Source: an uncultured Gammaproteobacteria bacterium (GTDB lineage: Bacteria; Pseudomonadota; Gammaproteobacteria; Pseudomonadales; Azotimanducaceae). Taken from it: 45,543 nucleotides of DNA. Under the pieces are notes generated by a model. That model did not search any database. It was not told the DNA's origin and worked only from the letters and a program-made list of their open reading frames with translations. A program made the translations under genes and the position numbers. Positions 28,269 through 32,464 of the stretch are shown here, one piece after another. Location of the stretch: the NCBI GenBank assembly GCA_913043815.1, contig CAJWNY010000012.1:1-45543 (forward strand), read 5' to 3'. The stretch's first letter is position 1. Each line of letters opens with the position of its first letter.

Positions 28269-28913
28269 CTATTTAATGGAAGCAAGACCTTCAGATATGG
28301 CGCTCTGGATCTCAGAGACATCACCCTGTCCGTTCACTTCAATATAGGCTATCAAGGGTTGGCTTTTATAATGAACGGCCAGAGGCTGCGTTTGTTCATA
28401 ATAAACGGCTAGACGGTCACGAACAGTTTCTTCTGTGTCATCTTCTCTTTGCACTAGTGGGTCGCCAGATTCATCATCCAAATCGACAACTTTCGGTGGG
28501 TTATAAATTACATGGTAGACCCGCCCGGAACCCGGGTGCACTCGACGCCCAGTAATGCGTTTAATCAGTTCTCCGTCATCCACTTGAATCTCCACCACGG
28601 CGTCGATAGGTACATCCGCAGCTTCCATCGCTGCTGCTTGTGGAATAGTTCGAGGAAATCCATCAAAGAGGAAACCATCTGCGCAGTCGGATTCTAAAAT
28701 GCGCTCTTTAACCAAAGCTATAATGATTTCGTCCGACACCAAACCGCCTGAATCCATGACTACCTTAACCTGATTGCCAAGCTCACTGCCGGAGCTAACT
28801 GCCGCACGTAACATATCTCCGGTGGAAATCTGGGGAATGTTTAGCTGTTCTTTTATGAACTGCGCTTGGGTGCCTTTTCCTGCGCCAGGTGGTCCCAATA
28901 AGATTATCTTCAT
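28269..28913 (-). CDS. adk: adenylate kinase
   Basis: Adk interconverts ATP plus AMP and two ADP. The 214-residue length equals E. coli Adk. It has the P-loop [10 protein letters not shown] at 7-16, the AMP-binding [17 protein letters not shown], and a long-form LID domain ([17 protein letters not shown]) that lacks zinc-binding Cys, as in other gammaproteobacteria. The ATG at 28913 is chosen because a GGAG lies about ten bases upstream. The longer frame opens with TTG. Its promoter must lie between 28914 and 29033, next to the relA terminator. Confidence 0.97.
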
Positions 28914-28981
28914 TCTCTCTGTCTCCAAACGATGACTGCGTTTAACAACTTAAGCGCGACACTTTACCTGATTTTCGATGC

Positions 28982-29033: not shown

Positions 29034-31049
29034 CTAAAGCAGTGGGTTCCGAACCACCGACTGCACTCCTTTTAAAAAGTTAATCCTACTGATTAACTGA
29101 AAGTACTGACGCCAGTCCTGTAATTCTACTTCTAGAGAAATACGCGCTTCTGTTACGGATGCCATAACTTCGCCGGAAGCCGCCAAAATTTGTAGATCCA
29201 TGGCCGCCACAAGCTGAGTGATATCACTAAGCAGACCATGTCTATTTGCAGCAGTAACACTGATCCCCATGCGCTGCGGAAAAGTAGCAAGAAGGCCGCT
29301 AGGTAAATTGGCCGAACTTTTCGCATTTTCTACCCTGCTTCGATTTTCTAAAAACTCAGCCATAAGAGCAATATAGCTTTGCTCACCACCGCTTACCGCG
29401 CGCAGCATCGCGTCCACATCCACGTACTTCGTGTCTTCACAAAGAGCCTCAAACTGAGCATCAGAGACGGTATCAAGGCCTATACTGGCTGCCAAAGTTT
29501 GAATCAGCTGCAGCCCAACTTTAGGTTCTAAATTTTCAGCCCTAGAGCGATATTGAGTAACGATTTTCGCCTTCGCCCTATGCGTTCGCACAAACTCAAG
29601 GGTTGGTTCCAGCCACTCTCTATGGGGCCCGAGATTTTCACTATTACTATCGCCGCCCAAAACTCGAACTTGCTGACCAGTCTTGAGTTCAGTGTACAGA
29701 GGTACTTCCATGCCATTCACAATACCGCCAACGCAGTTATGACCAAGATCCGTATGCACTCTATAAGCAAAGTCTAATACGGTGGCACCAGCGGACAAAT
29801 CTAAAACGTGTCCCTTTGGTGTAGATACAAAAATGCGGTCCTCGCTGATTCGTTGCCTTAGTAGAGAAACTAAGTCCTCAGTATCACCAAGGTCTTCGTG
29901 CCATTCCAGTACTTGCCGCAACCAGTCCATTTTTGCGGAGAAACTCTCGTCTTCAGAAGTAAATTCTTTTTCACCGACTTTATAGGCCCAATGCGCACAA
30001 ACCCCAAGCTCTGCATCGTCGTGCATCTTTCTTGTGCGCACCTGTACTTCAAGCACTAAACCGTCATCCGCGGCTATCGCTGTATGGATACTTTGATAGC
30101 CATTCTCTTTTGGTGCAGCAATATAGTCGTCGAACTCTTTTGGGATATGTTGCCAGTGCGTATGGATAATGCCTAAAACGGCATAACAATCGGCTAAGGA
30201 ATCTACAATTACTCTAACCGCTCGAACATCATAGACTTGTTCAATAGGAATACTTTTCTTTTGCATCTTGCGCCAGATACTGAATATATTTTTCGCTCTA
30301 CCCCGAACTTCGGCTTCTACACCGTGTCCAACCAGCAATTCGCTAAATTGGATTGCCAAGGCTTGAATTTGATTTTCACGTTCTTGACGCTTATTGCTGA
30401 GCTGTTTCGCAATGCCCAGATAAATATCCTCACGCAAATAACGTAGCGACAAATCTTCCAGTTCCCACTTTAGCTGCCACATACCTAAGCGATCTGCTAA
30501 CGGAGCAAAAATGGCAGCGGCTTCTTCCGCAATGCGGGTCCTTCTGCTAGGCTCATAAGTCTTTGCATGACGCAATACCAACACACGTTCGGCCAGTTTA
30601 ATCACTGCAACACGGACATCATTAACTAACGAGATGAGCATTTTCCGCACATTATCCACTTGGCTGCGGCGCTCCTTCTCTAGCATTTTTGGTGCAGAAA
30701 TCTGCAGTAGGCTACTGGTTGCCATAGCACCTACATTCAGAGTCAGTTCGCAAACTTCATCTCCAACTCTAAATCTGAGTTCAGCGTTATCGACAAGAGA
30801 TTTTCGCCAAGAGTGATAACAAATCGCCGCCAGCACCGAAGCCTGATCTAGCCGTAACTGCGCCACCATCTCCGCCAACTCTAACCCTTGGAGCAATGAG
30901 GGATCTGCGACCTCACTCAACCACAAACATGTTTGAAGTATTTCTTCACGCTCTAAGTGCGGGCGCTCTGTGATTAATAAATCTGCCCAAGCAGCAAGAT
31001 CTACACTGCCGTCGGCATGCTCAGGTAACGCTTTTCGAACACTAACCAT
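29034..31049 (-). CDS. relA: GTP pyrophosphokinase RelA lacking the zinc-finger/RIS domain
   Basis: RelA makes (p)ppGpp on stalled ribosomes with uncharged tRNA in the A site. From the ATG at 31049 the protein is 671 residues (E. coli 744), beginning MVSVRKA like E. coli. It has a degenerate, presumably inactive hydrolase domain, a synthetase domain (about 245-360) with YDVRAVR, NGYQSIHT and LEVQVRT, and the acidic EFDDYI that marks RelA, not SpoT. TGS is at about 403-466, the helical domain at about 480-568, and ACT at about 595-671. The Cys-rich domain expected between the helical and ACT domains is absent, replaced by a linker of about 26 residues. The frame is uninterrupted. Confidence 0.94.
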   Translation of the reverse strand: MVSVRKALPEHADGSVDLAAWADLLITERPHLEREEILQTCLWLSEVADPSLLQGLELAEMVAQLRLDQASVLAAICYHSWRKSLVDNAELRFRVGDEVCELTLNVGAMATSSLLQISAPKMLEKERRSQVDNVRKMLISLVNDVRVAVIKLAERVLVLRHAKTYEPSRRTRIAEEAAAIFAPLADRLGMWQLKWELEDLSLRYLREDIYLGIAKQLSNKRQERENQIQALAIQFSELLVGHGVEAEVRGRAKNIFSIWRKMQKKSIPIEQVYDVRAVRVIVDSLADCYAVLGIIHTHWQHIPKEFDDYIAAPKENGYQSIHTAIAADDGLVLEVQVRTRKMHDDAELGVCAHWAYKVGEKEFTSEDESFSAKMDWLRQVLEWHEDLGDTEDLVSLLRQRISEDRIFVSTPKGHVLDLSAGATVLDFAYRVHTDLGHNCVGGIVNGMEVPLYTELKTGQQVRVLGGDSNSENLGPHREWLEPTLEFVRTHRAKAKIVTQYRSRAENLEPKVGLQLIQTLAASIGLDTVSDAQFEALCEDTKYVDVDAMLRAVSGGEQSYIALMAEFLENRSRVENAKSSANLPSGLLATFPQRMGISVTAANRHGLLSDITQLVAAMDLQILAASGEVMASVTEARISLEVELQDWRQYFQLISRINFLKGVQSVVRNPLL

Positions 31050-31102
31050 TGAACACTTCAATCCCCAGCGCTAGCACTATAAAATACACCGTATTAGTCA
31101 AT

Positions 31103-32464
31103 TTATTCACCACGCACGAAATGCCCAATAGTTTCCACATGTGCAGTATTTGGAAACATGTCGTAGATACCCACTTCTCGAAGAACAAAGCCGCTATCGC
31201 GAAGGCGCTTCGCGTCGTCGGCAAAAGTAACCGGGTTGCAAGAAACATAAACAATCTGCACTAGCTCAGGGGGATTCACCCAAGATTCTAAATTAGGACC
31301 AGCGCCGCTCCGCGGCGGATCTAAAATCAAAGCCTGTGGGAACTTACCAAAATGCCGCAGCGTTGCCAACATACTAGTGTCCACCTCAGCCGTGGCTGTT
31401 TCCGAGAAGAGGTCTTCGTCTGCAAAGTGGCAGCGATCCGAAAGACCATTCCGCTGCGCATTATGCTTCCCCATAATCACGGCTTCTTGGCTGCCTTCAA
31501 TACCCACAACCCTAGCGCCTGCACGAGCAAGAGGCAGAGTGAAATTGCCGATGCCGCAGAACATATCAGCAACAACTTGGTCAGCAATATTGCCAAGATA
31601 ACCTAGCGTCGTGCGCACCAACTCCCTATTCATAAGCGCATTCACTTGAGTAAATTGGTGAGGATAAAATTGTAGGCTCAGCCCGTACTCTGGAATTTTA
31701 TAATCCAGGGGAATGACTTTGTCGTCGTTATTGAGACGCGCTAAAGTGTTGTAACCCTTACTTTGCAGTAAAACCTGCACCGGGTGCTTGGTTTCGAAAT
31801 GTTGCCAAAGTGCCCGATCATTTTCTGTCAATGGCTGAAGGTGGCGTACCAAAATCGCAATATTATTATCCCCTTGCGCAACTTCCAGTTGAGGCACTGT
31901 ATGCGGTTCACTCATCTGGCCAACCGTCTTTTTTAGATCTGGCAATAGCGCTGACAACTGTTTGGTAAGGGTAAGGCAATGATCAATGCGCGCTACACGG
32001 TTGCTGAAGGACTCACGAAAACCTACCAATACGTTTTCCCCGACTACGCGCACGCCCATGCGCGCTTTGCGCCTGTACCCACTGCGCACCTGGGCACTAG
32101 GCTGCCGCCACTGAGCAGGCTCCACTGATACTCTTGCCAGTTGTTCGGCTAAATGACTTTGCTTATGTAACAGCTGAGCTTTAGCACTCATGTGGTGCAT
32201 TGCACACCCACCACAGCGGGGGAAATATTCACATGCTGAGGTCGCTCTGTCTTTGTTGGGCTGAACCTGGGATTCAGAAAAGTCTATCAGGCGACCGTCT
32301 GCAAACTTTTTGCCGCCGCGACGCTTCAAAATACGGGCAATCACTCTTTCACCGGGCAGCGCGTTTCGAATCCAGATTGGACGTTCGTTTAACGTGGCAC
32401 CGCCGAGTCCATCTTCGGACAGGCTCACTACATCTAATTCAACTTCGGTTGGGCTCTTGGCCAT
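31103..32464 (-). CDS. rlmD: 23S rRNA m5U1939 methyltransferase RlmD
   Basis: RlmD (RumA) methylates U1939 of 23S rRNA using S-adenosylmethionine and carries a 4Fe-4S cluster. The 453-residue protein has an N-terminal TRAM domain (about 1-65), the cluster cysteines in SACEYFPRCGGC, a Rossmann SAM domain with DMFCGIGNFTLPLA, and the catalytic nucleophile segment IVYVSCNP. It sits 53 bases upstream of relA on the same strand, a pairing common in gammaproteobacteria. Its start overlaps the recO 3' end by 26 bases. Confidence 0.96.
   Translation of the reverse strand: MAKSPTEVELDVVSLSEDGLGGATLNERPIWIRNALPGERVIARILKRRGGKKFADGRLIDFSESQVQPNKDRATSACEYFPRCGGCAMHHMSAKAQLLHKQSHLAEQLARVSVEPAQWRQPSAQVRSGYRRKARMGVRVVGENVLVGFRESFSNRVARIDHCLTLTKQLSALLPDLKKTVGQMSEPHTVPQLEVAQGDNNIAILVRHLQPLTENDRALWQHFETKHPVQVLLQSKGYNTLARLNNDDKVIPLDYKIPEYGLSLQFYPHQFTQVNALMNRELVRTTLGYLGNIADQVVADMFCGIGNFTLPLARAGARVVGIEGSQEAVIMGKHNAQRNGLSDRCHFADEDLFSETATAEVDTSMLATLRHFGKFPQALILDPPRSGAGPNLESWVNPPELVQIVYVSCNPVTFADDAKRLRDSGFVLREVGIYDMFPNTAHVETIGHFVRGE

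Follow-up and report, generated by a model that had tools for sequence, protein, structure and literature searches.

RelA of E. coli, a six-domain long RSH protein (RelA[hS]), offers the best-described view of how such an enzyme engages the ribosome. When RelA is ribosome-bound, the linker helix that follows its helical domain packs on the ACT domain, and ACT contacts the A-site finger and L16 (excerpts of PMC4974054). The contact between the zinc-finger domain (ZFD, or RIS) and this finger was termed key for RelA binding, and truncations of the finger lowered RelA activation 4- and 30-fold, with residual function in cells (excerpts of PMC5829649). In E. coli the finger contact was likewise termed crucial for efficient RelA recruitment; point mutations in the ZFD weaken activation without completely abrogating it, and the ZFD mutations R629E and CC-to-AA counter the toxicity of RelA devoid of its RRM (excerpts of PMC7058999). 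In the same excerpts His432, described as reading the CCA end of the tRNA, is crucial. A C-terminal fragment comprising RIS and ACT inhibited RelA in one study (PMC7669825); dimerisation as a key control of RelA was not supported by another (PMC6719525).

Here we analyse a relA gene on a stretch of 45,543 nucleotides, referred to as the window. Like its E. coli counterpart, the window RelA combines an HD domain devoid of the hydrolase motif with an EFDD synthetase, the CCA-reading TGS histidine, a helical domain and ACT, and its gene also follows rlmD. Whereas E. coli RelA possesses a ZFD/RIS (residues 585-660) and D675, the window protein has no ZFD and carries Asn at the position of D675.

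A RelA without a zinc-finger domain

The locus and the domains of its product are arranged as follows.

28269..28928, minus strand: adk (adenylate kinase), a downstream neighbour common at relA loci of the family
29034..31061, minus strand: relA coding sequence, with an ATG start at 31049 and an open frame from a TTG start at 31061
29046..29276, minus strand: ACT/RRM domain, residues 596-672 in the AlphaFold2 model (Pfam ACT_4, 598-671)
29277..29312, minus strand: short loop at the site of the missing ZFD/RIS (about 75 residues), residues 584-595
29313..29621, minus strand: helical domain, residues 481-583, closing with the linker helix (AlphaFold2 model)
29661..29834, minus strand: TGS domain, residues 410-467 (Pfam); His436 corresponds to E. 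coli His432
29970..30302, minus strand: (p)ppGpp synthetase domain (RelA_SpoT), residues 254-364 (Pfam), with EFDD and NGYQS motifs
30477..30905, minus strand: pseudo-hydrolase (HD_4) domain, residues 53-195 (Pfam)
31103..32464, minus strand: rlmD (23S rRNA m5U1939 methyltransferase), upstream of relA as in E. coli

An earlier note on this DNA had described an intact frame of 671 residues that retains the synthetase motifs, EFDD and TGS. The frame at 29034-31061 is indeed open, giving 671 amino acids from the first ATG (675 from the TTG), and the Pfam domains together with EFDD are present. The closest sequence match in the PDB is E. coli RelA (5iqr, E 1.2e-127). In RSH proteins the hydrolase motif of the HD domain is HD..ED; by eye, it was not seen at the equivalent place of the window RelA, and the SpoT of the same genome reads HDVIED. 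This SpoT (738 amino acids) is the one other protein with a RelA_SpoT domain in the genome and keeps its ZFD, so that the comparison between the two paralogues suggested in the earlier note yields a clear contrast. NCBIfam scores the window protein at 490.8 bits with the RelA model versus 331.1 bits with the SpoT model, both under the curated cut-offs, and the genome's own SpoT at 883.6 bits with the SpoT model versus 455 bits with the RelA model. The window gene is a true relA orthologue.

The central claim of the earlier note, a RelA devoid of ZFD/RIS, was borne out by Pfam, a ZFD HMM, phmmer, NCBIfam and an AlphaFold2 model. The ZFD HMM, trained on RelAs from outside the family, found no match in the window RelA. 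The NCBIfam RelA equivalog is covered at positions 1-567 of 744 only, and the score reaches 490.8 of the 728 bits of the cut-off. In phmmer, the alignment to E. coli RelA extends to residue 568 and resumes weakly from 668; the unaligned stretch of about 568-668 thus corresponds to the ZFD/RIS region. In the AlphaFold2 model (alignment of 47 sequences; pLDDT 85.2, pTM 0.78), a helix at residues 574-583 leads via a loop at 584-595 into a complete ACT fold at 596-672, and the best structural match in the PDB is ribosome-bound E. coli RelA. No other fold lies in between, in agreement with the proposed direct passage from the helical domain into ACT. A search for a concealed zinc finger by structure prediction, which the earlier note had recommended, thus returned no additional domain, and the model together with the HMM search rules out a hidden ZFD in the window RelA. 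The linker itself had been put at about 26 residues. Positions 29268-29345 encode residues 573-598, which comprise the linker and the last residues of the helical domain; the linker is short, as proposed, and its unstructured part is nearer to 12 residues than to 26, as the model assigns the initial portion of those 26 to the final helix of the helical domain.

Distribution and number of losses

A RelA match (E <= 1e-100) was obtained in 149 of 200 genomes of the window's family (f1). We read 145 of these (all except those of G151, G174, G180 and G192) and two more from the window's genus, 147 in total, of which two were not judgeable (G137, L144, where the stretch reads N; G185, L237, a contig end). 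HMM searches for the ZFD and ACT in relatives, as advised in the earlier note, reveal that the ZFD is absent from 94 of the 145 determinable RelAs and kept in 51. The carriers of the ZFD-less form are mostly uncultured marine bacteria; they represent 15 genera, including all 26 RelAs read from the window's genus (g1), and the 51 ZFD-bearing proteins belong to 14 other genera. Measured from a point near the helical domain's end, the median distance to ACT is 21 residues in the ZFD-less proteins of the family versus 98 outside the family. A sequencing or assembly error that removed about 70 codons, considered in the earlier note, is ruled out by the recurrence of the absence in 94 RelAs of the family, single-contig genomes included.

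Even where the domain stays, it appears degenerate in the family. Members that keep the ZFD mostly score 24.9-48.1 bits with the HMM (outliers: g40, 14.5; g44, 20.3; g18, 77.9 bits), compared with 86-109 bits in 11 other families of the order; three of 12 further ZFD-bearing RelAs of the family scored 20-26 bits, two of these being masked or cut sequences. E. coli R629, an arginine in the vicinity of the A-site finger, has an R or K counterpart in all 85 RelAs from outside the family and in 3 of the 50 ZFD-bearing ones within it (the rest including four gaps and one masked position). For this count and those of the other residues given below, rows shorter than 600 amino acids (L020, L166, L234, L032) were dropped; L032 (family f3) is a fragment of 451 amino acids and was kept out of the comparisons. 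The low scores and the widespread loss of the R629 equivalent suggest that the ZFD weakened in the family before it was lost.

SpoT is spared. In 14 of 14 checked genomes with a ZFD-less RelA, SpoT keeps its ZFD, SpoT being assigned as the strong-ZFD protein that resembles the window genome's SpoT far more than its RelA. With E values up to 1, no second strong ZFD was found besides SpoT in the 14 genomes, the best of the other matches being a frame of 489 amino acids in G008 (24.2 bits). A second match in G058 lies in a 70-residue frame (19 bits) and was taken as chance. Provision of the ZFD in trans is very unlikely in these 14 genomes, whose single strong ZFD is that of SpoT.

The gene neighbourhood supports vertical descent of relA within the family: adk adjoins relA at 86 of 95 ZFD-less and 49 of 51 ZFD-bearing family loci (135/146), versus 1 of 86 others, and E. 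coli carries mazEF-mazG at this downstream position. Upstream, rlmD adjoins relA at 48/95 ZFD-less and 50/51 ZFD-bearing family loci, and at all 32 ZFD-less family loci with at least 900 nt of upstream sequence. In the genera g20, g21, g46 and g50, whose flanks are mostly shorter, rlmD was seen at 2 of the 47 loci assigned to these genera, and thus the gene order upstream of relA may differ there.

Following the proposal of the earlier note, we mapped the trait on a RelA tree, obtained with a quick search from 56 rows covering residues 50-565. A constraint that unites all ZFD-less rows of the family in one clade was not rejected (p-AU 0.448), and these sequences may therefore form a single clade. 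In the free tree, a long-branched row of genus g44 with a weak ZFD falls among them; its exact placing is unsure. The RelA trees do not recover the family as one clade, so that the sequence of weakening and then loss rests more on adk synteny and taxonomy.

When 292 genomes from across the order were sampled (271 with RelA at E <= 1e-90), each proved to have at least one ZFD. A single ZFD match in a RelA-positive genome was observed for nine members of f1, six of genus g80 in family f44, G252 and G310. All six g80 RelAs read lack the ZFD and keep ACT. G252 (family f45) combines a RelA match with a single ZFD match, and in G310 the sole ZFD sits in a 766-residue frame taken to be RelA. A common origin of the losses in f1 and f44 was considered and discarded: their joint clade is rejected (p-AU 0.0006; 0.035 with g44 included), the test using the four of six f44 RelAs that are on the tree. 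Rejection of this clade implies that the ZFD has been lost from RelA at least twice.

Across the class (158 genomes sampled; 118 with a match at E <= 1e-85, some of these being SpoT), the ZFD is kept in all of the ten shortest best-match frames (640-707 amino acids, that of the window excluded), and two or three of these ten are without ACT. Two such proteins from other gammaproteobacterial families, L277 (G527) and L278 (G623), keep the ZFD and stop shortly past it, the reverse of the window RelA; L274 may be similar.

Several relatives have no RelA at all. None was found in nine f1 genomes that are 91-100% complete (G022, G215, G039, G050, G055, G061, G063, G069 and G073), and genera g97 and g141 of f44 gave no RelA match in the order-wide sample. 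Among 11 RelA-negative family genomes examined for RelA_SpoT, nine encode one long protein, taken as SpoT, and the other two add a shorter synthetase frame to such a protein. RelA thus appears dispensable in families that also shed its ZFD. In G428 (f44), of a genus without a RelA match, L270:845-2047 (minus strand) encodes a 400-residue synthetase-domain protein whose C-terminal half is TPR-like by eye; it resembles a small alarmone synthetase extended by repeats. G461 has a 406-residue frame with a synthetase domain as in the G428 protein.

Conservation and proposed mode of action

Both aspartates of EFDD, the Asn, Tyr and His of the NGYQSIHT motif and the equivalent of the TGS residue His432 are invariant in 234 of 234 aligned RelAs. 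Of 93 ZFD-less RelAs of the family, 11 carry Ala, Thr or Gln in place of the first Glu of EFDD. In a comparison of five close relatives, pn/ps amounts to 0.057 for the synthetase, 0.099 for TGS, 0.116 for the pseudo-HD domain, 0.147 for ACT, 0.227 for the helical domain and 0.557 for the linker (573-597), with 0.14 over the whole gene; the values are rough, as dS is saturated in several pairs. Judged from the ratios of ACT and linker, purifying selection maintains ACT, and the linker, under much weaker constraint, acts like a spacer. ACT_4 is present in all 47 members of alignment A2. Mean identity in the helical domain and ACT is 0.30 and 0.31 among ZFD-less family RelAs (a sample of 40), compared with 0.49 for both outside the family. 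Asn replaces the ACT aspartate that contacts L16 (E. coli D675) in 33 of 93 ZFD-less RelAs of the family, the window RelA among them, and in 7 of 50 ZFD-bearing ones. This substitution and the lower conservation of the helical domain and ACT indicate that the ribosome contacts of ZFD-less RelAs may be relaxing.

On the ribosome side, 23S rRNA was recovered from 11 of 12 genomes searched (six with a ZFD-less RelA, five with a ZFD) and was not found in the window's own assembly. The A-site finger (H38) has full length in all 11, with A886 and the bulged A896 kept; a shortened finger as a co-adaptation was thus discarded for the six ZFD-less genomes. Small base changes in the finger-tip loop occur in four of the five ZFD-less family genomes and are absent from the fifth and from f44. 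Because this finger also serves other functions, finding it conserved is no proof that RelA binds. In G111, the 23S match (L258) spans 3600 bases versus the usual 2900 or so, and an inserted element is likely.

On the basis of sequence conservation and the published structures, we consider it likely, with some reserve, that the ZFD-less protein is a working RelA that reads deacylated tRNA and is anchored via ACT and tRNA, probably more weakly. The ZFD was lost by descent. Its weakening in the family, with the R629 equivalent mostly gone, would probably have come first; a common ancestor of many genera would then have dropped the entire domain, leaving a short linker of variable sequence instead. 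The protein is predicted to retain (p)ppGpp synthesis, to be held on the ribosome through its ACT and tRNA contacts, and to bind weakly to idle ribosomes, with a greater dependence on tRNA being present. The altered activation by stalled ribosomes that the earlier note had anticipated is plausible by analogy with published mutants. More tentatively, this could amount to a stringent response in which RelA visits the ribosome transiently, brought there chiefly by the A-site tRNA and without pre-binding, a state reached at least twice and maybe a step towards loss of RelA.

Alternatively, RelA might be uncoupled from the ribosome and act as a low-level or ligand-controlled synthetase, ACT sensing a small molecule or mediating dimers and TGS serving intramolecular control. 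The missing ZFD anchor, the D675N change of the window lineage, the lower conservation of the helical domain and ACT, and the apparent dispensability of RelA in some family members all fit this proposal; we nevertheless regard it as unlikely, given that the CCA-reading histidine is invariant, that ACT is still under purifying selection and that the A-site finger, its other functions aside, is kept. Decay towards gene loss, with the missing domain as an early step of pseudogenisation, is improbable and already disfavoured: although nine of the 11 RelA-negative family genomes tested manage with a single long RelA_SpoT protein, taken as SpoT, and the ZFD scores are low where the domain persists, the frames are long and open, the catalytic residues of the aligned RelAs are invariant, whole-gene pn/ps is low and 15 genera share the trait. 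That the ZFD is hidden, supplied in trans or removed by sequencing or assembly error is barely credible, for although the window's own assembly (133 contigs, 90% complete) may miss a ZFD gene, the structure model has no extra domain, 94 family RelAs share the absence, and the strong ZFD match is SpoT in every one of the 14 genomes, all others staying at or below 24.2 bits.

The ZFD-less proteins offer a test, set up by nature, of which RelA domains starvation sensing requires. With the ZFD gone and TGS and ACT under selection, they lend themselves to asking whether recruitment and activation are separable. In marine bacteria, they are also relevant to changes of the stringent response, which sometimes extend to the loss of RelA.

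Comparison with known systems

Natural C-terminal shortening, as in the window RelA, is described for the RelAs of Francisella and Methylotenera; these lack ACT, whereas the window protein keeps ACT and lacks the ZFD (excerpts of PMC3153485 and PMC4708007). According to the same excerpts, Francisella RelA is still activated in vitro by stalled ribosomes, though more weakly. The contact between the ZFD and the A-site finger is disturbed, as in the window RelA, in RRM/ZFD deletions and ZFD point mutants of Rel and RelA; these were engineered in the laboratory, in E. coli and B. subtilis, and none of those in the excerpts of PMC7058999 removes the ZFD alone while keeping the RRM. The census of Atkinson (2011) lists RelAs without ACT and two SpoTs without the helical and CC domains, and in its excerpted part no RelA without CC alone (PMC3153485). 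In the open-access literature searched, we found no earlier report of a natural RelA lacking the ZFD only. The nearest parallel is provided by SpoT of Haemophilus ducreyi and Actinobacillus pleuropneumoniae, which like the window RelA have lost the CC/ZFD internally and kept ACT; these two SpoTs are also devoid of the helical domain, whereas the window protein is a RelA without the ZFD alone (excerpts of PMC3153485).
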